Shown here in pieces: positions 3 through 10,913 of a DNA stretch of 64,000 nt. The notes under the pieces were generated by a model. It made no database searches. It worked only from the letters and a program-made list of their open reading frames with translations, and was not told the origin of the DNA. The stretch is from Symploca sp. SIO2E9 (GTDB taxonomy: Bacteria > Cyanobacteriota > Cyanobacteriia > Cyanobacteriales > Coleofasciculaceae): assembly GCA_010692645.1 (NCBI GenBank), contig JAAHGS010000013.1:18741-82740 (forward strand), given 5' to 3'. Every line of letters begins with the position of its first letter. Position 1 is the stretch's first letter. The translations under genes were made by a program, and so were the position numbers.

Positions 3-851
3 CGCAGCCCTCAAATTGCTAGTGGTACAAATGTTTGGCTAGGGATTGGACTAGCCATGCTGTGCTGGTTTATTGGGGGATTGCTGTTTGGTTGGTGGGA
101 GCTTTACATCGGTCTTGAACCTGATGTGTCCCCTGCCGACTTATTTTATATCAGTTTCTATATGTTTCTGAGTTGGGGTATGGTTTTAGCAGTTATTCCC
201 CGACGTTTGAATTTAGAGGTTTGGCAGTGGGTAACTGTGGCAGCAATCGCTTTGATGGGGATTGCCTTAGCAATCTGGTTAGTAGTTGCCACATCTAATA
301 TTTCAGAGTCAGTAAACATTGATGCAGAACCTGCTGCTACTCAATTATCAGAATCTGGTAATACTGGGGAGGAAAAATCTACTCCCTCACTAAGACTTGT
401 GGAGCAACAGAGTACTTCGACAACAATGGTGACGACTTCAATAGAACCAGTAACAAAGCTAGTATCACTCGAAACTGCCCAAAAGCAGCCACCTGATTGG
501 GCAATCTCTCTCGACGAAAATCTTAACAAGTTCTCTGAACCACTGAATTTCTTTTTAATTATCGGCGATGTCTTCCTCCTGATTATTGCCTCAGCTTTGT
601 TATTAGCTTTTTGGGGTGGACGTTTCTCCCAATCCTGGCGTATGATAGCTGCTGCTACTTTTTCCCTGTACATTGGGGATATGTGGTTTAAATATGCTGA
701 TGCTAGAGCTGTAGAATACGAAAGCGGGGGTTTACTAGAAGTGTCTTTTGTTTTTAGTGGAGTGCTCTTTGCCATAGGAGCTGCCCTCGAGTATGAAGTA
801 TCGAGTCGCTCTCGCCGTGGTTCACGCAGACGGGCCAAAGAATTAGCATGA
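3..851 (+). CDS. Membrane protein, 5'-truncated by window edge
   Basis: The frame stays open from base 3 through the first ATG at 57, so the real start probably lies outside the window. Hydrophobic segments are visible near the start (LCWFIGGLLFGWW), at ISFYMFLSWGMVLAVI, at VTVAAIALMGIALAIWLVVA, and three more after a Ser/Thr/Glu-rich hydrophilic loop of about 90 residues. The protein ends in an Arg-rich tail (SRSRRGSRRRAKELA). I do not recognise the family. The stop overlaps the start of the next gene by four bases (ATGA), so the two are probably co-translated. An integral membrane protein with a large soluble loop is all that can be said. Confidence 0.7.
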   Translation, partial: RSPQIASGTNVWLGIGLAMLCWFIGGLLFGWWELYIGLEPDVSPADLFYISFYMFLSWGMVLAVIPRRLNLEVWQWVTVAAIALMGIALAIWLVVATSNISESVNIDAEPAATQLSESGNTGEEKSTPSLRLVEQQSTSTTMVTTSIEPVTKLVSLETAQKQPPDWAISLDENLNKFSEPLNFFLIIGDVFLLIIASALLLAFWGGRFSQSWRMIAAATFSLYIGDMWFKYADARAVEYESGGLLEVSFVFSGVLFAIGAALEYEVSSRSRRGSRRRAKELA

Positions 852-1795
852 GTCCCAGAAAACTTTCTGATACCGACAAAAGCGAAATCCTAGAGTTGTA
901 TCGACAGCAGTCAGAGACAACTTCAACTTTGGCTACGCGTTATGGTGTCAGTAATTCAACAATTAGTCGCATTCTCAAAAGCAGCCTTGTGGAGTCAGAA
1001 TACGAAGCGCTTATTCAGCAAAAGCGTTTGGGTCGTACTTCAAGTAGTAGCACCCATTCTAGCGAAAATCCTCCGCCGCCGACGGATTCAGAAGCAGAGC
1101 CATCCCTGCCTATTGAAATTGCTCAACCAGCAGTAGAATCTGAAAAATCTGAGACTGAATTAGCCTATAATGCCAAGGATGGACGGCGGCGGCGTAGGCG
1201 TTCTTCGGTTCCCTCTCAGCCAGTTTATGAGGAACATGCCATACAAACTGAGTTGCAACTTGACATTACTGTCGAGCCACAAGAGGATGAGGAACCAGAG
1301 GATGAAGTTTTTGATGAGATTGAGTTTGGTGCAACCACAAACCTAGAGGGGCTGCTCGATGACGATTTGATCGATTTAGATGAAGATGATGACGATTTAG
1401 ATGAAGATGATGACGATTGGGAGGAAGATGATGAGGATTCCCCAACTCAGCATAAAATCTCAACCTCTTTTTCTCAAACTGGTGTCAGCATTGAAGTTAT
1501 ACCCTTATCGGAAGCTTCCCTGCCTAAAGTTTGTTATCTAGTAGTAGATAGATCGGCAGAGTTGATTGCTAGACCACTCAAAGAGTTTAGTGACTTGGGA
1601 CGAATTCCTAATCAGGAATTTTATCAGAAGACACTGCCAATATTTGACAATCACAGAGTGGCAAGACGTTTTTCTAACCGCTCCCAGCGAGTGATAAAAG
1701 TTCCTGATGGTCAAATGCTTCAGAAAACGGCTGATCATCTGCAAGCTAAAGGTATCACTAGACTACTGATTGATGGTCAGATTTATTCTCTATGA
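848..1795 (+). CDS. HTH protein with acidic linker
   Basis: The first 50 residues form a helix-turn-helix of the type found in transposases and resolvases (KSEILELYRQQSETTSTLATRYGVSNSTISRILK). A low-complexity linker follows: Ser/Pro-rich, then an Arg run (RRRRRR), then a long Asp/Glu tract around residues 140-200. The C-terminal ~100 residues are globular (from VIPLSEASLPKVCYLVVDRS to the end) and of unknown fold. No DDE catalytic domain is present, so it is more likely a DNA-binding regulator than an active transposase. It overlaps the upstream membrane protein gene by four bases. The acidic tract is encoded by direct repeats and may vary in length between strains. Confidence 0.72.
   Translation: MSPRKLSDTDKSEILELYRQQSETTSTLATRYGVSNSTISRILKSSLVESEYEALIQQKRLGRTSSSSTHSSENPPPPTDSEAEPSLPIEIAQPAVESEKSETELAYNAKDGRRRRRRSSVPSQPVYEEHAIQTELQLDITVEPQEDEEPEDEVFDEIEFGATTNLEGLLDDDLIDLDEDDDDLDEDDDDWEEDDEDSPTQHKISTSFSQTGVSIEVIPLSEASLPKVCYLVVDRSAELIARPLKEFSDLGRIPNQEFYQKTLPIFDNHRVARRFSNRSQRVIKVPDGQMLQKTADHLQAKGITRLLIDGQIYSL
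1375..1416 (+). repeat. Two perfect 21-bp tandem repeats in the acidic tract
   Basis: A 21-base unit starting TTTAGATGAAGATGATG is repeated twice exactly, in frame, and encodes part of the Asp/Glu-rich linker of the HTH protein. The flanking bases continue the GATGAC pattern imperfectly. This is a candidate for in-frame expansion or contraction. Confidence 0.85.
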
Positions 1796-2578: not shown

Positions 2579-2663
2579 GATATGCTAAATTGTGACTGAC
2601 CTTTGCATAACTTACACAGTGCAAGGAATTGCTATAGCTTAACAAAGCTTCCTATAATTTAGT
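2579..2663 (+). promoter_or_regulatory. Promoter of first HTH-AAA module, likely leaderless
   Basis: About 85 bp immediately before the ATG at 2664 are nearly identical to the 85 bp before the paralogous gene at 6860. A TTGCTA -35-like box, an 18-bp spacer and a perfect TATAAT (2653-2658) place the expected transcription start at or within a base or two of the ATG. No Shine-Dalgarno sequence lies between. Conservation of this block in both copies supports a real shared promoter. Confidence 0.6.
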
Positions 2664-3923
2664 ATGTCGCGATCGCTAAAAGTTTCCCCAGAGAACATAC
2701 AAGAAGTTAAGTCGGCTTTTAGTAGAAGTCCTTTTACCAGCCAGCAAGCCCTTGCCACAGAGTTAGGACTTGCAAGAGATACCATTCGCAAATTCTTGAG
2801 TGGTATACCCATTGATCGTCTAAATTTTCAAGAAATTTGCGATAAATTGGGTCTGGACTGGCAAAGTATCCTCCCTAGGACTGATGATACTTCAGAGTCT
2901 AGCATTCCACCAGATTTTTATGTGCAGCGTCCTCCCATTGAATCTGACTGTTGTCAGGCTATTGTACAATCGGGAGCCTTGTTGCGGATTAAAGCGCCTC
3001 AGCAAATGGGCAAAACCTGTTTAATGCGTAAAGTTCTCCAACATGCTAGAAAACAGGGTTATAAAACGGTAGTTTTAGATATTCAGCAAGCCAGTAGTGA
3101 TAACTTTTCTGACTTGCGTAAATTCTTAAGGTGGTTCTGTACCACTGTCGGTGATGAACTGAATTTACCTGGGCAGTTGGAGAATTATTGGCATGGTTCC
3201 TCGCCCAACTACAACACCACAAAGTACTTTAAGAATTATCTGTTGGGAAATATTACTAGTAATCTGGTTCTAGCCCTCGATAATGTAGATTTGGTTTTCG
3301 AGAAGGCTCAACTTGCTCCAGATTTTTGTGGACTATTACGCAGTTTGAATCAGAAAGCAGAGAGCGGTGATGTGGTCTTTCAAAAACTACGTTTGGTAAT
3401 AGTACATTCTACAGACGTTTATAGCTCTATTAATATAACTCAATCACCACTTGCCAATGTCGGAGTGACAGTTGAACTGAAACCCTTTAACTGGCAGCAA
3501 GTATGCGATTTAGCAAAGCTATATCAATTATCTTGGGATAATACACAGCTTCGTGAATTAATAAACATGGTGGGAGGACATCCCTATCTAGTGAAAGAAG
3601 CTTTTGATAAGATTGCTCGGCAGAGGTTAACGTTCGATGAACTATTACAAACAGCTTATACAGAAGCTGGAATTTATGGCGATTATCTGCGTGGCTACTT
3701 GTTAAAGTTAAATCATAATGCAGAGCTTAGGGAAGCAATGAAAAAAGTAGTTGCTGTCAATAGCCCAGTGCGTTTAGAAGTAACTCACAGGTTTCAATTA
3801 CACAGAATGGGGCTGGTGCATCTGCAAGGGAATGATGTGAAGATAAGTTGCAATTTGTACAGGAAGTATTTCTGTGATTGCCTAGAAGTCACTGACTGTG
3901 ATTGCTTTGGAGTGAGTCAATGA
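2664..3923 (+). CDS. HTH-AAA ATPase, module copy 1
   Basis: Residues 1-70 form an N-terminal helix-turn-helix-like domain (SQQALATELGLARDTIRKFLSG, then LNFQEICDKLGLDW), as seen in many cyanobacterial AAA/STAND proteins. A P-loop ATPase domain of the AAA_35-like type follows. It has an unusual Walker A (APQQMGKT, near residue 112, with Ala replacing the usual first Gly) and a Walker B LVLALDNVD near residue 200. The C-terminal part (MVGGHPYLVKEAF ...) resembles the sensor/winged region of such ATPases. No membrane segment is visible, so it should be cytoplasmic. The stop overlaps the ATG of the next gene (ATGA), implying coupled translation and a stoichiometric partnership. It is a clear paralogue of the gene at 6860. 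Function unknown; signal-responsive regulation is an inference. Confidence 0.85.
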   Translation: MSRSLKVSPENIQEVKSAFSRSPFTSQQALATELGLARDTIRKFLSGIPIDRLNFQEICDKLGLDWQSILPRTDDTSESSIPPDFYVQRPPIESDCCQAIVQSGALLRIKAPQQMGKTCLMRKVLQHARKQGYKTVVLDIQQASSDNFSDLRKFLRWFCTTVGDELNLPGQLENYWHGSSPNYNTTKYFKNYLLGNITSNLVLALDNVDLVFEKAQLAPDFCGLLRSLNQKAESGDVVFQKLRLVIVHSTDVYSSINITQSPLANVGVTVELKPFNWQQVCDLAKLYQLSWDNTQLRELINMVGGHPYLVKEAFDKIARQRLTFDELLQTAYTEAGIYGDYLRGYLLKLNHNAELREAMKKVVAVNSPVRLEVTHRFQLHRMGLVHLQGNDVKISCNLYRKYFCDCLEVTDCDCFGVSQ

Positions 3924-6661
3924 GTCTAGCTTCAAACTCAAATTATGAATATAAGGTTGGGGGAATAGTACCGCTTAACAACCAGACTTATGTAAAGCGA
4001 CAGGCTGATGATGACCTCTATTATTGGTTAAAGTCAGGTGATTTTTGCTATGTGTTGAATTCGCGGCAGATGGGCAAGTCTAGCTTGCTACTGCGAACGA
4101 TGCGTAAGCTAGAAAATGACGATTTTGCTTGTGTCAAGATCGATGTGTCTGGGGACATTGGAACTACCATTGAGCAGCCAAACCAGTGGTATGACGTTTT
4201 AGTTGAAATTATCGCTGATAGCTTTGGTTTAGATTTTATAACCTGGAGGGATAATTACCAGTCGCTTTCTCTCCTCAAGCGATTGAGTAAATTTATTGAG
4301 AATTTTCTGTTAGCAGAAATTAATCACAAAATCGTAATTTTTGTGGACGAAATTGATAGCGTTCTCGGTCTTAAATTCAAAATTGATGACTTTTTTACTT
4401 TTGTCCGCTATTGCTATAACCAACGCGCTTACAATCCAGAATATAATCGCCTTACCTTTGCACTGTTCGGCGTTGCTAGACTATCAGATTTAATTGAGGA
4501 TAAACAGCGCACACCATTTAATATTGGTAGAGAAATTGCACTCGATGGTTTTCAGTTGCGCGAAGTCGAACCGTTAGCTAAGGGATTGGAAGATAAGGTA
4601 GATAATCCACAGACAGTTCTCAAAGAGATATTGGCATGGACAGGTGGACAACCCTTTCTCACTCAAAAACTTTGCAAATTGGTTCTGAGAGCAAAATCAC
4701 CTATTAATTCTGGTAATGAAGTAATCTCGATTGAGCAGTTAGTGCAATTAAATATCGTCGATAATTGGGAATCTCAAGATGAGCCGGAGCATCTGAGAAC
4801 CATACGCGATCGCATTTTTAAGAATGAAAAAAGTATGGGGCGTCTTTTGGGACTATATCAGCAAATTTTACAACAGGGAGAAATTACTGCTGATGATAGT
4901 CCTGAACAGATGGAATTGCGTTTGTCAGGGTTGGTGGTGAAGTGCAGCGATAAAAGCAAACCTCCCTGCTTAAAGGTTTATAACCATATTTATCAAGATA
5001 TTTTTAACCAGGATTGGATTAAGAAGGAGCTGGAGAATCTTCGCCCTTACGGCGAATACTTCACAAATTGGTTGGATTCAAATTGTAATGAACAATGGCT
5101 TTTAAGAGGAGATACACTCCAGGAAAGTTTGGAATGGAAAGAAGGTAAAAACTTAAGTTATCATGATTATCAATTCCTCAGTGCCAGTCAAGAACTAGAG
5201 AAGCGAGAAACTCAAATCGCTTTCGAGCAAGAAAGACAAGCTAATCGATGGAAACTAGCTACTGCTTTAAGTTTCGCTTTGGGAATTACTACCCTATTTG
5301 GTGGAGGATTGCTGTGGCAACAGTTCATATATTGTCCAGCAGGTGAAGAGAGAGTAAACGGTACCTGCTTTAAATTTGAGGCTAGCAGTGGAGAGATAAG
5401 ACTATTTGTTTCCAATCAAAACTCAGCTCTGATAAAAGGGATTAAGTATTTCAATTTAGGAGATTATCCAAAGGCAATTAATTTCTTTAGACAAGCTGTA
5501 GATAGTGCCCCAAATAACCCAGTACCTCAGATTTACCTCAACAATGCCCAAGCCCGTCAGCAGGGCAATCCTTTTAAACTAGCAGTAGTGGTGCCAGTGG
5601 AAAACGAAGAAAGAGTCGCTCAAGAAACATTACGAGGTGCTGCTGATGCACAAACCAAATTTAACAAAGCCAATGGCTTAAATAGTCGTTTATTAGAGAT
5701 AGTGATTGTCAACGACGCCAACAAACCAGATATCGCCAGCAAAGTTGCTCAATTGCTAGTTAAAAAATATCCAGGAGTTTTGGGAGTAATTGGACACAAC
5801 TCCAGCGATGTCAGCAAAGCCGCACTCGCCGAATACGAAAAAGTTAGTTTGGCTATGGTTTCTCCCAGCAGCGCCAGTACCTATTTAAAAAGCCCTGTTT
5901 TTTTTAGGACGGTTCCTTCTAATTATGCAGCTGCTGAGAAGCTAGCTAAGTATGCAAAAAACACTTTGGGCATAGACAAAGTAGTGATTTTCTATAATCC
6001 TAATAGCATTTACAGTGATGACCTGAAAAAATTATTTGAGAAAGAGTTCACTGATTTAGGAGGGAGCATTGTCCAGAATTTTGACATGACAAATTCTGCT
6101 CTAGATGCTGAGGCACAAATCAAGCGAATTGTGAATCAGGATCAAGCAAAAGCTCTGGTTTTGATTCCTAGTGTAGAAATAACTTCTGTAGCTATCTTGA
6201 TTACTAAGATCAATGCCCAATTGCCACAGCAACAAAGGTTGCAGTTGTTGGGAGGTGCTACATTATATAGCTCTAAAACCTTAAGAGAGGGAGGCTCTGC
6301 TGTCGATGGCTTAACCTTAGTTGTACCTTGGTATGACCAAAACTCTGCCTATGCTAAAGCAGCAAAGGAGCGATGGAAAGAAACAATTGGCTGGCGCACA
6401 GCCGCCAGTTATGATGCAACCTGGGCTTTTATTAAAGCGCTATCTATAAATGCCTCAAAGAATACAGTAATTGAAAATCTGGAGTCTTTAGAGCTTTCAT
6501 GCAGTGATACATCAGGTGAGAAACTCAAGTTTTGGGCAGATGGCAACCCTGATAGGGAATCCCGCCTAGTTCAAGTTGATAGAAATGCACCTGCTCCCCA
6601 TGATTCCGGGTTTGGTTTTAAGCCAATTGAAGATAGCAATAGCAATCAAAGTGAATGTTAA
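3920..6661 (+). CDS. AAA ATPase-TM-TPR-periplasmic binding domain fusion, copy 1
   Basis: The start is taken as the ATG that overlaps the upstream stop, preceded by GGAGTGAG; an upstream TTG would add six residues. Residues ~1-430 are a cytoplasmic AAA_35-like ATPase with Walker [10 protein letters not shown] (about 48-55) and Walker B KIVIFVDEID (about 137-146). A hydrophobic helix at ~443-465 leads to a segment with two cysteines (CPAGEERVNGTC), which could form a disulfide outside the membrane. One TPR-like repeat follows (ALIKGIKYFNLGDYPKAINFFRQAV). Residues ~550-900 resemble the type I periplasmic binding fold of Leu/Ile/Val-type receptors ([40 protein letters not shown]). The layout suggests a one-piece transmembrane sensor with an external ligand domain and an internal ATPase. 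No transporter permease is nearby. Ligand and output are unknown. Confidence 0.85.
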   Translation: MSLASNSNYEYKVGGIVPLNNQTYVKRQADDDLYYWLKSGDFCYVLNSRQMGKSSLLLRTMRKLENDDFACVKIDVSGDIGTTIEQPNQWYDVLVEIIADSFGLDFITWRDNYQSLSLLKRLSKFIENFLLAEINHKIVIFVDEIDSVLGLKFKIDDFFTFVRYCYNQRAYNPEYNRLTFALFGVARLSDLIEDKQRTPFNIGREIALDGFQLREVEPLAKGLEDKVDNPQTVLKEILAWTGGQPFLTQKLCKLVLRAKSPINSGNEVISIEQLVQLNIVDNWESQDEPEHLRTIRDRIFKNEKSMGRLLGLYQQILQQGEITADDSPEQMELRLSGLVVKCSDKSKPPCLKVYNHIYQDIFNQDWIKKELENLRPYGEYFTNWLDSNCNEQWLLRGDTLQESLEWKEGKNLSYHDYQFLSASQELEKRETQIAFEQERQANRWKLATALSFALGITTLFGGGLLWQQFIYCPAGEERVNGTCFKFEASSGEIRLFVSNQNSALIKGIKYFNLGDYPKAINFFRQAVDSAPNNPVPQIYLNNAQARQQGNPFKLAVVVPVENEERVAQETLRGAADAQTKFNKANGLNSRLLEIVIVNDANKPDIASKVAQLLVKKYPGVLGVIGHNSSDVSKAALAEYEKVSLAMVSPSSASTYLKSPVFFRTVPSNYAAAEKLAKYAKNTLGIDKVVIFYNPNSIYSDDLKKLFEKEFTDLGGSIVQNFDMTNSALDAEAQIKRIVNQDQAKALVLIPSVEITSVAILITKINAQLPQQQRLQLLGGATLYSSKTLREGGSAVDGLTLVVPWYDQNSAYAKAAKERWKETIGWRTAASYDATWAFIKALSINASKNTVIENLESLELSCSDTSGEKLKFWADGNPDRESRLVQVDRNAPAPHDSGFGFKPIEDSNSNQSEC

Positions 6662-6775
6662 CAGCAAAGCAGGAGGCAGAGGGCAGAAGGTTGTTTATGC
6701 CCAATTATTCAGTGATGTACCTCAATTCCGTCAAATCCTAGTCACGACTTTGATCTAGGCTCAAATAATCTTTGG

Positions 6776-6859
6776 GTATGCTAAATTGTGATTGACTTTT
6801 GCCTAATTTACACAGTGCAAGAGACTGCTATTGCTTAACCAAGCTTCCCATAATTTGGT
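6776..6859 (+). promoter_or_regulatory. Promoter of second HTH-AAA module, likely leaderless
   Basis: This block is a near copy of the promoter before position 2664. It shares ATGCTAAATTGTGA, TTTACACAGTGCAA and the run into CATAAT (6849-6854), five bases before the ATG at 6860. The -10 hexamer differs by one base from the first copy. As there, no Shine-Dalgarno sequence fits between promoter and start codon. Confidence 0.55.
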
Positions 6860-8107
6860 ATGCCGCGATCGCTAATAGTTGCCCCAGAGTATAGAGAAGC
6901 AGTTCATTCTGCTTACAAGAGAAGTCCCTTTCCCAGTCAGCAAGCTCTTGCTACAGAATTAGGACTTTCAAGAGATACCGTTCGCAAATTTTTGAGTGGT
7001 AGACCAATTGATCGTCTAAATTTTCAAGAAATTTGTGATAAATTGACTCTGAACTGGCAAAATATTGTGCTGATAAGAGATGATATCTCACCACCTACCC
7101 TACCACCAGATTTTTATGTAAAGCGCCCTCCCATTGAATCTGACTGTTGTGAGGCTATTGTGCAACCGGGAGCCTTACTGCGAATCAAAGCGCCTCAGCA
7201 GATGGGCAAAACTTGGTTAATGCATAAAGTTCTCCAGCATGCTAGAGAGCAGGGTTATACCACAGTTACTTTAAGCTTTGATCTCGCTGATAGTAAGGTT
7301 TTCACTAACCTAGAGAACTTCTCCAAATGGTTCTGTATTGCTGTCAGTCAGAAGTTAGAATTGCCCAATCATTTGAATAATTATTGGGAAGATCTTTTGG
7401 GATGTAACTATAACAACACAGTTTACTTTCAAAACTATTTATTGCCAAAGGTAACTTCTCCTTTAGTTCTAGCCTTGGATAAGATGGATATAGTTTTTGA
7501 ACACCCAGAGATTGCCCTTGATTTTTGTAAACTACTACGGAATTGGCATGATCAAGCCAGAAGGGGCGATCGCACTAGTAGTATTTGGCAAAAACTTCGC
7601 CTGATAATTGTACACTCTACAGAAATTTATCGTTCACTCGATATAAATTCCTCACCCCTTAATGGCGTGGGAGTAGTGGTTGATTTACCCGATTTTAACT
7701 CTCAACAAGTAGAGCAGTTAGCCAGGCAATATCGACTGATTTGGAACACTAACCAAATCAACCAACTAATGGAACTAATTTCAGGACATCCCTACTTAGT
7801 ACAGCTGGCTTTTAATCACATTAATTACAAGGGGATAACACTTGACCAAGTATTGGCAGAAGCTGCCACAGAAGCGGGACTTTATGGCGATCATCTACGA
7901 AGACATTTGAGAAATCTTGAACAAGATCCAGATTTAACTAGAGCTTTCTGTGAGGTTTTATATGCAGAAGGAAATAAACCAGTTCAACTAAAGCCAATGC
8001 CAGCCAAATATTTAGAACGTTTGGGGCTAGTGAAGCTTCAAGGTAATTTTGCGGTGTTACGCTGTCAATTGTACTGTGATTATTTCCGTCATCGCCTCAG
8101 CTGCTAG
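6860..8107 (+). CDS. HTH-AAA ATPase, module copy 2
   Basis: This is a paralogue of the protein encoded at 2664, with the same order. The N-terminal HTH-like domain reads SQQALATELGLSRDTVRKFLSGRPIDRLNFQEICDKL. The ATPase has the same Ala-type Walker A (APQQMGKTWLMHKVLQHA) and a Walker B-like LVLALDKMD. The HTH and the Walker A region are much better conserved between the copies than the middle and C-terminal parts, so selection seems to act mainly on the DNA- or partner-binding end and the nucleotide pocket. The next gene begins 31 bp downstream, in contrast to the overlap seen in copy 1. Confidence 0.85.
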   Translation: MPRSLIVAPEYREAVHSAYKRSPFPSQQALATELGLSRDTVRKFLSGRPIDRLNFQEICDKLTLNWQNIVLIRDDISPPTLPPDFYVKRPPIESDCCEAIVQPGALLRIKAPQQMGKTWLMHKVLQHAREQGYTTVTLSFDLADSKVFTNLENFSKWFCIAVSQKLELPNHLNNYWEDLLGCNYNNTVYFQNYLLPKVTSPLVLALDKMDIVFEHPEIALDFCKLLRNWHDQARRGDRTSSIWQKLRLIIVHSTEIYRSLDINSSPLNGVGVVVDLPDFNSQQVEQLARQYRLIWNTNQINQLMELISGHPYLVQLAFNHINYKGITLDQVLAEAATEAGLYGDHLRRHLRNLEQDPDLTRAFCEVLYAEGNKPVQLKPMPAKYLERLGLVKLQGNFAVLRCQLYCDYFRHRLSC

Positions 8108-8138
8108 TCGTTAGTCATCACTAAATAAGTAACCAGAA

Positions 8139-10913
8139 ATGGTAGATTACCAGTATCAAGTTGGAGCTACTTTACCGCCTGATGCTCCTAGCTATGTTAA
8201 ACGAAAAGCTGACGAAGACCTCTATGAGGGGCTGAAAGCTGGGGAGTATTGTTATATACTCAACTCCCGACAAATGGGTAAATCTAGCTTGGAGGTAAGA
8301 GCCAGGAAAAGGCTGGAAACAGAGGGTTATGCTTGTGCTTTAATCGACCTATCCCAAATTGGTACAAAAGAAGTTAGCCCAACTCAATGGTATGCAACCA
8401 TAATTCAAAATTTGGCTGACTCTTTTGAGTTAAATTTTAAGGTATCACATTGGTGGCGAAACACCAAATTAATATCACCTTTACAGCGATTGAATGAGTT
8501 TATTGAAAAAATTCTGCTGGTAGAAGTTAGGCAAAAGATTGTAATTGTTATTGACGAAATCGATAATATTCTAAGTCTAGATTTTCCAGCAGATGACTTT
8601 TTACTATTTATTCGAGCTTGCTATAACCAGCGAGTTAATAATCCAGAATATAAACGTCTTATTTTTGCCATCATTGGTGTAGCAACACCATCAGATTTGA
8701 TTAAGGACAAAAAGCGCACACCTTTTAATATTGGTCGCGCTATTGAGTTAACTGGCTTTAAGTTAGAGGAAGCTCAGTTAGCCTTAACTTATGGGCTAGC
8801 ACAGAAGGCAGATCATCCGGAACTGGTTTTAAAAGAAATCCTAAAATGGACAGGAGGGCAACCCTTTCTCACTCAAAAGCTTTGTCAACTAGTTCTGAGA
8901 TCGAAATTACCTATTACTTGCGGTAACGAAGTAAACTCCATTGAGCAGTTAGTGCAATCAAATATTATCGATAATTGGAAATTTCAAGATGAACCGCAGC
9001 ATCTGAGAACCATAACCGATCGCATTTTTAACGATGAGCAAAGTGCTGGGCGTCTTTTGGGATTGTATCAGCAAATTTTACAAAAAGGAGAGATTACTGC
9101 TGATGAGAGTCCTGAACAGATAAAGTTGCGGCTATCTGGGTTGGTAGTCAAGCGTAGCAATAATAGAATTAGCCCATTTTTAATAATTTATAACCCTATT
9201 TATAAGCAGGTCTTTAACCAGGATTGGTTAAATCTGGAACTAAGTAATCTTCGCCCTTACGCCGAATACTTCACAAATTGGTTGGATTCAAATTATGATG
9301 AACAATGGCTTGTGAGAGGAGAAATACTCCAGAATAGTTTGAAATGGAAAGAGGGGAAAAACTTAAGTGAGTTAGATGAGCAGTTCCTTCGTACCAGTCA
9401 AAACTTAGCCAGAAGAGAAACTTCCGCTCGAATTGCCCTAGAGAAAGAAAGACAACATAATCGCTCTAATCGCTGGAAAATGACTGCTGCTTTCAGTATT
9501 ACTTTTAGTATGACTGCACTACTTGGAGTATTTTTATGGCAGCAGTTCATATATTGCCCAAGTGATCAACAAAGATTAAACGGAAGCTGCTTTAAATTTG
9601 AAGCTAGCAGCGGAGAAAAACTACTGTTTCCTTTGTTGCCTTCCGATAATAACAATGACCTAGAAAGTGGGGTTAAAGCTTTCGAGTCAGAAAATTATCA
9701 AAATGCAATTTATTTCTTCACAAAAGCTGTCCAAGCCGCACCGAAGGATCCAATACCAAAAATTTACCTCAATAATGCCAAGGCCCGTAAGGAAGATTCT
9801 CTTTTTAAACTGGCAGTAGTCGTATCAGTAGACAACGAAGAAGATTCTGCTAAAGATATGTTACTAGGTGTTGATATGTTACGAGGTGTTGCTGATGCAC
9901 AAACCAAATTCAACAAAGCCAATGACATCAAGGGTTACTTACTAGAGATAGTTATTGTCAATGATAAAAACAAGCCATATGTAGCACGCAAAGTTGCCCA
10001 ACAATTAGTTAAAATTCCAGAAATTTTGGGAGTCATTGGACACAATTCCAGTGATGTTAGCGAAGCCGTACTAGGCGAATATGAAAAGAGTGGTTTGGCT
10101 CTGCTTTCTTCCAGCAAAACTAGTCCCTATTTAGAAAATCCTGTTTTCTTTCGTACAGTTCCTTCTAATAGTGCAGCTGGCGAAAAACTGGCTGAGTATA
10201 CTAGAGAAATTTTAGATATAAAGGAAGTAGTGGTTTTTTCTAATCCTGATAACAGTGACAATATTAGCCTGCAAGGAGCTTTTCATAGCAAGTTTACTGA
10301 TTTAGGAGGGGAGGTTGTCGATAATTTTAATATGAAAGATTTTGCTCTAGATCCTGAAGAAAAAATCAACCACATTGTGAATCAGGAGCAGGCAAAAGCT
10401 ATTATCTTAATTCCTAGTGTAGAACAAACTTCTTTTGCTCTCTCTATTGCTCATATAAATGCCCGGTTCCCACAGGATAAAAGGTTGCAATTGTTGGGCG
10501 TTGGTTCGCTCTATCGTCCCGAAACATTAAAACATGGAGGATCTGCAGTTGAGGGCTTAATTTTAGTTGTACCTTGGCATCACCAAAACTCTGCCTATGC
10601 CAAAGCAGCAACAGATAGATGGAAAACAACAATTGGCTCGCTCACTGTAACTAGCTATGATGCAGCTCAAGCTTTTATTGAAGCGCTATCTATAAATGCC
10701 TCAAGGAAAAAAGTACTTGAAAATCTGAAGTCTTTAAAGCTTGCATGCCATCAAAAATCTGGGGAGACATTGTGGTTTGACCAAAATGGCGAATCTAATC
10801 GGGAATCACACCTGGTTCAGGTTGATAGAAATGTGGCTGATTCGAGTGATGCCAGATTTGTTTTTAAGCCAATTGAAGATAACAATAGCGATGAACCCAA
10901 CTGCGAATATTAA
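8139..10913 (+). CDS. AAA ATPase-TM-TPR-periplasmic binding domain fusion, copy 2
   Basis: This is a paralogue of the fusion at 3920 with the same domain order. Walker A is NSRQMGKSS and Walker [12 protein letters not shown] membrane helix lies near residues 447-470. The cysteine pair ([12 protein letters not shown]) is conserved just outside the membrane, then come a TPR-like stretch and a type I periplasmic-binding domain from ~556 ([50 protein letters not shown]). Conservation of both cysteines supports an exported, disulfide-bonded segment. Copy 2 carries a small insertion near residues 570-582 ([15 protein letters not shown] against TLRGAADAQ in copy 1). Retention of two full modules suggests different ligands; this is inference. 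Confidence 0.85.

Follow-up and report, generated by a model that had tools for sequence, protein, structure and literature searches.

The well-studied nucleotide-binding leucine-rich repeat (NLR)-like proteins of bacteria sense parts of phages inside the cell and carry effector and sensor on one chain. In plants, paired NLRs consist of a sensor NLR and a helper or executor NLR (PMC9528088, PMC9975940). Kaur et al. (2020, PMC7159879) described predicted conflict systems with exchangeable N-terminal trypsin, caspase, cyclase, nucleoside-phosphorylase, TIR or EAD domains, and among them a two-gene EACC1-caspase system, some members of which have a transmembrane segment and an extracellular periplasmic binding protein (PBP) C-terminus. 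Here we compare with these systems a locus of the cyanobacterium Symploca sp. SIO2E9, in which a window of 64,000 nucleotides (contig JAAHGS010000013.1, positions 18,741 to 82,740) contains two head-to-tail copies of a two-gene unit, A-B. Each copy is probably a paired NLR-like system made up of a sensor (B) with an extracytoplasmic sensing domain and an output protein (A), the output domain in this window being a helix-turn-helix (HTH). The features that carry this reading were computed directly: the domain order and folds of the proteins, the steady pairing of A with B, the co-variation of their ATPase domains and the swapping of the domains at both ends of the pair.

Organization of the two-gene module

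In a preliminary description of this stretch the module was proposed to be a tandem duplication that retained promoter, gene order and domain order. The duplication is real: all four open reading frames are open at the coordinates listed below, copies 1 and 2 are in register over ~4.2 kb with aligned blocks of 72-83% DNA identity, and the promoter blocks (2527-2826 versus 6723-7022) are 83% identical. The stop codon of A1 and the start codon of B1 overlap as ATGA and 31 bp separate A2 from B2; for B1, the ATG at 3920, which overlaps the A1 stop, is preferable to the TTG at 3902.

2664..3923, + strand: gene A1, 419 aa, HTH and type-A AAA_35 (STAND-like) ATPase; AAA_35 405.5 bits
3920..6661, + strand: gene B1, 913 aa, AAA_35, transmembrane helix, Cys pair, TPR, Peripla_BP_6
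6860..8107, + strand: gene A2, 415 aa, HTH and type-A AAA_35; 423 bits, model pLDDT 89.5
8139..10913, + strand: gene B2, 924 aa, AAA_35, transmembrane helix, Cys pair, TPR, Peripla_BP_6

With the Pfam cut-off of 27 bits and a full-length domain match required, all four proteins belong to the family AAA_35 (PF14516), A1 and A2 at 405 and 423 bits and B1 and B2 at 108 and 120 bits. The assignment of gene A as an HTH-like domain joined to a P-loop ATPase held, in that an HTH of ~70 residues, for which Pfam gave weak HTH matches, precedes AAA_35:

2664..2873, + strand: HTH (Cro/C1-like) domain of A1, the exchangeable output slot; weak HTH matches, HTH-kind cluster of 17 A N-termini, helices in the A2 model
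2910..3875, + strand: AAA_35 domain of A1; P-loop APQQMGKT, Walker B LALDNVD, GxP motif GGHP
6860..7069, + strand: HTH domain of A2; weak Pfam match, helices in the A2 model
7106..8089, + strand: AAA_35 domain of A2; Walker B LALDKMD

The predicted structure of A2 (predicted local distance difference test score, pLDDT, 89.5) has an AAA+/STAND fold. Among the Foldseek matches to this model were an archaeal ATPase (2qen) and, at E 3.7e-8, Avs3 in complex with a phage terminase, along with apoptosomes and NLRs of plants, and VIA-align gave a Z of 15.4 to CED-4 over 290 residues at 5.4 Å; the fold of A resembles the cores of Avs3, CED-4, Dark and plant NLRs. Supporting the placement of these proteins in the STAND class, which is characterized by P-loop, Walker B and GxP motifs and by an AAA+ fold followed by a winged helix, was that both ATPase types (A and B) retain the three motifs, the fold being taken from the A2 model. 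The second Walker B acid is replaced, by N in A1 and by K in A2. The Walker A motif APQQMGKT had been singled out as odd, but it is ordinary because it fits the general P-loop [AG]x4GK[ST] and is typical of the family (RIKAPxxMGKT), and we rejected it as a mark of novelty; the less usual P-loop of the pair is NSRQMGKS in gene B. Sequence comparison of A with solved structures matched RecA fusions and DnaB-type helicases, only locally at the P-loop, and we judged these matches to be chance. Neither a predicted membrane helix nor an EACC1 match was found in A. The HTH of A also heads an NB-ARC/NACHT protein encoded in the same genome (L184, C223) and is therefore a module common to several STAND proteins.

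The B proteins match Peripla_BP_6 at 116 bits (B1) and 96 bits (B2) in addition to AAA_35, and the layout originally described for them stood with respect to the ATPase, the one membrane helix, the TPR and the binding domain:

3962..4990, + strand: type-B AAA_35 domain of B1; P-loop NSRQMGKS, Walker B IVIFVDEID, GGQP
5255..5317, + strand: transmembrane helix of B1, LATALSFALGITTLFGGGLLW, with NRWK just before it; N-terminus inside by the positive-inside rule
5333..5368, + strand: Cys pair of B1, CPAGEERVNGTC, just outside the membrane; kept in close relatives only
5435..5518, + strand: TPR-like hairpin of B1; TPR_1 E 2e-4, below the Pfam cut-off, equivalent region modelled in B2
8169..9194, + strand: type-B AAA_35 domain of B2; 120 bits
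9480..9539, + strand: transmembrane helix of B2; hydrophobic sequence
9555..9590, + strand: Cys pair of B2; from sequence

The ectodomain of B is preceded by a single hydrophobic helix, relatives scoring 1.5-2.7 (Kyte-Doolittle) at this position, and we infer a topology in which the ectodomain lies outside the inner membrane. The TPR falls under the Pfam cut-off in B1 and is confidently modelled as helices in B2. The Cys pair, which had been regarded as conserved, was rejected as a general feature: it is confined to the close clade, occurs partly in a second ATPase-PBP family and is missing from most other PBP-type B proteins.

Pairing of A with B and exchange of their end domains

The genome around the window is cyanobacterial (7.7 Mb) and has 33 AAA_35 matches in total, strong for type A (354-524 bits) and weaker for type B (~70-123 bits). 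The type-A proteins have N-terminal HTH, TIR or other domains, and the type-B proteins mostly have C-terminal PBP, WD40, CHASE2, GAF/PAS, TPR-CHAT or GUN4 domains, with one type-B protein bearing response-regulator and PAS domains at its N-terminus. Beyond the two window copies there are seven further A-B neighbour pairs in this genome.

The expectation that A would neighbour B in other genomes was borne out, as 21 of the 24 loci that could be tested, which come from different genera, have A next to PBP-type B (the window twice, L056, L057, L058, L061, L062, L072, L080, L092-L096, L101-L103 and L105-L108). The testable loci were those found via B only, with duplicate genome records counted once (L056=L100, L057=L133, L095=L110, L080=L109, L090=L092, L091=L093) and with L059 and L089, which are cut by contig ends, left out. 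The class-wide search scored the two best candidates per genome, and therefore PBP-type B proteins are under-counted in it. For all type-B AAA_35 proteins in the named-genome set, A was adjacent in 55 of 87, and a further 11 lay at the edge of a contig. The named hosts of PBP-type B include Nostoc, Scytonema, Brasilonema, Symploca and Leptolyngbyaceae, which are mostly filamentous.

The N-terminus of the A protein beside PBP-type B is an HTH in six cases (the window twice, L056, L072, L093, L106), caspase-like CHAT in six (L092, L094, L095, L105, L107, L108), the nucleoside-phosphorylase domain PNP_UDP_1 in three (L057, L058, L062), trypsin-like in two (L102, L103), TIR in one (L101) and EAD4 in one (L096); the A frames of L080 and L061 are truncated. 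L102 and L103 retain the trypsin-triad motifs, and the CHAT His and Cys motifs are both found in L092, L094, L107 and L108, with the Cys motif also found in L095 and L105. Both the N-terminus of A and the C-terminus of B are exchangeable slots. Several variant arrangements were also observed. At L060 (2078-6010) a PBP-type B has ~80 extra N-terminal residues (no Pfam match, EAD-like by eye) and a stand-alone PNP_UDP_1 gene is located in place of A. A second PBP-type B at L058 (6993-9365), seemingly split into frames of 212 and 577 aa, is probably a decayed copy. At L119 (5698-18677) three type-B genes follow a type-A gene in which guanylate cyclase and TIR domains stand ahead of AAA_35.

The module had been proposed to be a relay from ligand to gene expression. 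This proposal is partly supported, namely in the fold, the fusion and the pairing with A. Gene expression is not supported as its general mechanism because 13 of the 21 pairs have a CHAT, PNP_UDP, trypsin-like, TIR or EAD4 domain in place of an HTH at the N-terminus of A. In the window copies the HTH may bind DNA, or it may recruit other proteins. A near-palindrome is located 52 bp before the start of each A gene:

2612..2624, + strand: candidate operator, near-palindrome TTACACAGTGCAA, before A1
6808..6820, + strand: candidate operator, TTACACAGTGCAA, before A2

These are the only two copies of TTACACAGTGCAA in the genome, and the sister species Symploca sp. SIO3C6 has a perfect palindrome, TTGCACAGTGCAA, at the same place before its A. 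As the promoters are homologous, however, the palindrome is weak evidence for an operator, and we rejected it as a general HTH operator since the remaining HTH-type A genes that were checked lack it in their upstream regions. These observations bear on the possibility that the locus is a one-ligand transcription switch, in which B senses a solute and the HTH of A binds DNA to control transcription, that of its own operon included. Ligand-triggered transcription switches are established among STAND regulators (MalT is one), the HTH of A keeps Cro/C1-type features and is shared with the NB-ARC protein noted above, and the shared position of the palindromes would fit such a switch. Given that enzymes or EAD4 replace the HTH in most pairs with the same kind of sensor, and given the restricted occurrence of the palindrome, we consider this explanation rather unlikely, albeit the most viable of the alternatives.

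Additional evidence for a partnership between A and B came from their ATPase domains, the distances of which correlate with an r of 0.77 over 69 neighbour pairs (highest of 2000 shuffles, 0.33). Because species relatedness inflates the correlation over 69 pairs, the test was repeated on just the nine paralogous pairs from a single genome, and these gave an r of 0.59 (p 0.008). Symploca sp. SIO3C6, the nearest relative found, has a single syntenic copy of the module that is a mosaic of window copies 1 and 2. Informative sites favour copy 1 in residues 1-100 of A (15 to 5), copy 2 in the AAA domain of A (113 to 12), copy 2 in residues 1-250 of B (78 to 10) and copy 1 in the ectodomain (601-900; 71 to 20). 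This pattern places recombination breaks near the HTH-AAA border of A and within the B ATPase or shortly beyond it, with the ATPase parts of A and B having moved together. Flanking proteins of the window are 82-99% identical to those of SIO3C6, in comparison with 81% for the best A and 68% for the best B, and therefore the module evolves faster than most of its surroundings. The flanking genes are syntenic in SIO3C6 but were not seen together in the short stretches checked of other relatives, and a site lacking the module was not established. A related HTH protein (MSPRKL...) is the immediate neighbour of an A-B module both in the window (848-1795) and at L096 (4646-5530), in a genome of another family, and may mark a preferred site.

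It might be supposed that the locus reflects an ordinary expansion of AAA_35 paralogues, in which neighbours were duplicated together with no specific A-B partnership, and this genome, with ~15 genes of type A and over a dozen of type B, is in keeping with that. We regard it as very unlikely, as adjacency is kept across genera while the A N-termini differ, the A and B frames overlap or nearly do so, and the ATPase co-variation exceeds the shuffles.

The predicted outward binding domain and a proposed model for the pair

The C-terminal region of B had been proposed to be a periplasmic binding domain resembling Leu/Ile/Val receptors and fused to a STAND/AAA ATPase. Pfam and structure prediction agree on the fold and the fusion, the predicted B2 ectodomain (mean pLDDT 90.7) having LivK/LivJ-type matches at Z 36.6 (3td9) and 36.1 (4mlc):

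5618..6586, + strand: LivJ-type (type I) solute-binding domain of B1, outward; Peripla_BP_6 E 3.6e-33
9864..10829, + strand: LivJ-type solute-binding domain of B2, outward; E 5e-27, model pLDDT 90.7, Z ~36 to 3td9 and 4mlc

A role as a Leu/Ile/Val receptor is doubtful. Pocket residues were mapped onto Escherichia coli LivJ, whose amino-acid contacts we take to be Ser79, Thr102, Tyr202 and Glu226, and counted over 27 PBP-type B proteins. Ser79, in lobe 1, is present in all 27 and Thr102 in 13, and Tyr202 and Glu226 are each kept in just one, with ten different residues at position 226 across the set. Neither window copy keeps Tyr202 or Glu226, these being replaced by S and by A or G, and the copies do not keep the full set of amino-acid contacts of a LivJ-type receptor. 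Since these two contacts are nearly always replaced, a canonical free amino acid is an unlikely ligand for the window copies. The external domains of the two copies have diverged, as previously suggested: of fifteen positions compared, B1 and B2 differ at LivJ positions 18, 101, 102, 150 and 226 (at the last four, B1 has S, A, Y and A, and B2 has K, T, D and G), and from these differences it is plausible that they bind different ligands.

The ATPase-PBP module is not the sole carrier of this ectodomain. The same TPR-PBP ectodomain was observed behind Ser/Thr kinases and CHAT domains, as single-protein receptors (L071, L075, L076; L074, L083, L086). A second ATPase family (AAA_16/nSTAND1-like, HGQRRIGKS) is also joined to TPR, a transmembrane segment and the same PBP ectodomain (L024 2213-8519, which is contig C26 of the same genome; L063-L069), and such fusions frequently occur as tandem pairs preceded by a small STAND gene. 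The least probable explanation, that B is a nutrient receptor or helper of an ABC importer whose PBP passes amino acids to a permease while the ATPases regulate uptake, has in its favour the Leu/Ile/Val-binding-protein fold and the invariant lobe-1 Ser79 contact but is hardly credible given the near-complete loss of Tyr202 and Glu226, the occurrence of the ectodomain on kinases and CHAT domains and the lack of a permease gene among the neighbours.

We return to the paired sensor-output reading, for which the presence of the same N-terminal repertoire in published conflict systems (PMC7159879) was also counted as support, and for which we infer the ligand, direct A-B contact, oligomerisation and biological role (including any in immunity) as follows. 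B would be a membrane-spanning sensor, with its type I binding domain and TPR outside the inner membrane binding a solute or other extracytoplasmic molecule. The signal would pass from the ectodomain through the single membrane helix to the cytoplasmic AAA_35 STAND ATPase, which would pair with the AAA_35 domain of A. Activated A would then oligomerise and deploy its N-terminal domain, the HTH of the window copies acting in transcription control or in the recruitment of further proteins. Because relatives pair the same kind of sensor with CHAT, trypsin-like, TIR, PNP_UDP and EAD4 outputs, analogy points to an alarm, cell-death or immune role.

It is important to note that several observations weigh against this model. 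The window A proteins carry an HTH and not an enzyme, and an immune role extrapolated from relatives may be wrong. The neighbours of the module are an HTH protein, CutA1, a nickel insertion protein and Sua5, and the last three, which are nearest, are housekeeping genes. Three PBP-type B genes (L060, L078 and L104) have no adjacent A, and no PADLOC model matches the module, the one hit being to PDC-S01 at E 0.012 over the P-loop only.

More broadly, we tentatively suggest, as a possibility that falls somewhat short of an even chance, that these genes represent a widespread and so far undescribed cyanobacterial receptor platform, in which one of two paired STAND ATPases bears a plug-in sensor, the outward solute-binding type being among these, and its partner a plug-in effector (TIR, CHAT, trypsin-like, PNP_UDP, HTH or EAD4). 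In bacteria it would be the equivalent of the paired NLRs of plants, directed at the surroundings of the cell, its signals perhaps being the death of neighbours or self versus non-self in filaments. Roles that are combined on one chain in the well-studied bacterial proteins would here be split over two STAND proteins, one sensor type being a small-molecule-type receptor outside the membrane. If so, multicellular cyanobacteria would possess surface-type alarm receptors coupled to enzymes of death or signalling, and the swaps that occur naturally at each end of the pair would allow the sensing and the acting domain to be told apart by test.

Comparison with known systems

The VMAP/iSTAND ternary conflict systems (PMC7159879) likewise have an exchangeable N-terminal domain repertoire on a regulatory protein, include GUN4 among their associated domains and occur mostly in multicellular bacteria; across loci, gene A has such an exchangeable N-terminus, which in the window copies is the HTH. 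Those systems comprise MoxR, vWA and VMAP/iSTAND, whereas two AAA_35 proteins and an outward solute-binding sensor are present here, and MoxR and vWA genes were not among the neighbours of the window module. The EACC1-caspase system (System 4) is similar in having two genes, membrane association and a variable C-terminus. It differs in having EACC1 in the 5' gene and a caspase at the N-terminus of the 3' gene, where B has a STAND ATPase; neither EACC1 in A (HTH and AAA_35) nor a caspase at the N-terminus of B (AAA_35) was found.

Avs and bacterial NACHT STAND proteins share the STAND fold, an N-terminal effector and a C-terminal sensor, and the A model matches Avs3, but each is one protein that senses phage proteins in the cell, in contrast to two proteins with a sensor predicted to face outward. 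Plant paired NLRs are comparable in having two NLR-like ATPases with a variable sensor on one and an output domain on the other. Their sensors are intracellular, however, and the likeness is in how the pairs would work, with no claim of common descent as a pair. LivJ and LivK share the fold and the Ser79 contact with the binding domain of B, which differs in being a tethered receptor domain with the side-2 ligand residues of LivJ replaced in nearly all cases. PADLOC and NCBIfam gave no informative name for the module proteins, and the open-access literature searched yielded no account of AAA_35 pairs. The domains, the fold and the general logic of the module were already known; what that literature did not contain is their combination in two paired AAA_35 proteins, one with a solute-binding sensor facing outward and the other exchangeable in its output domain.

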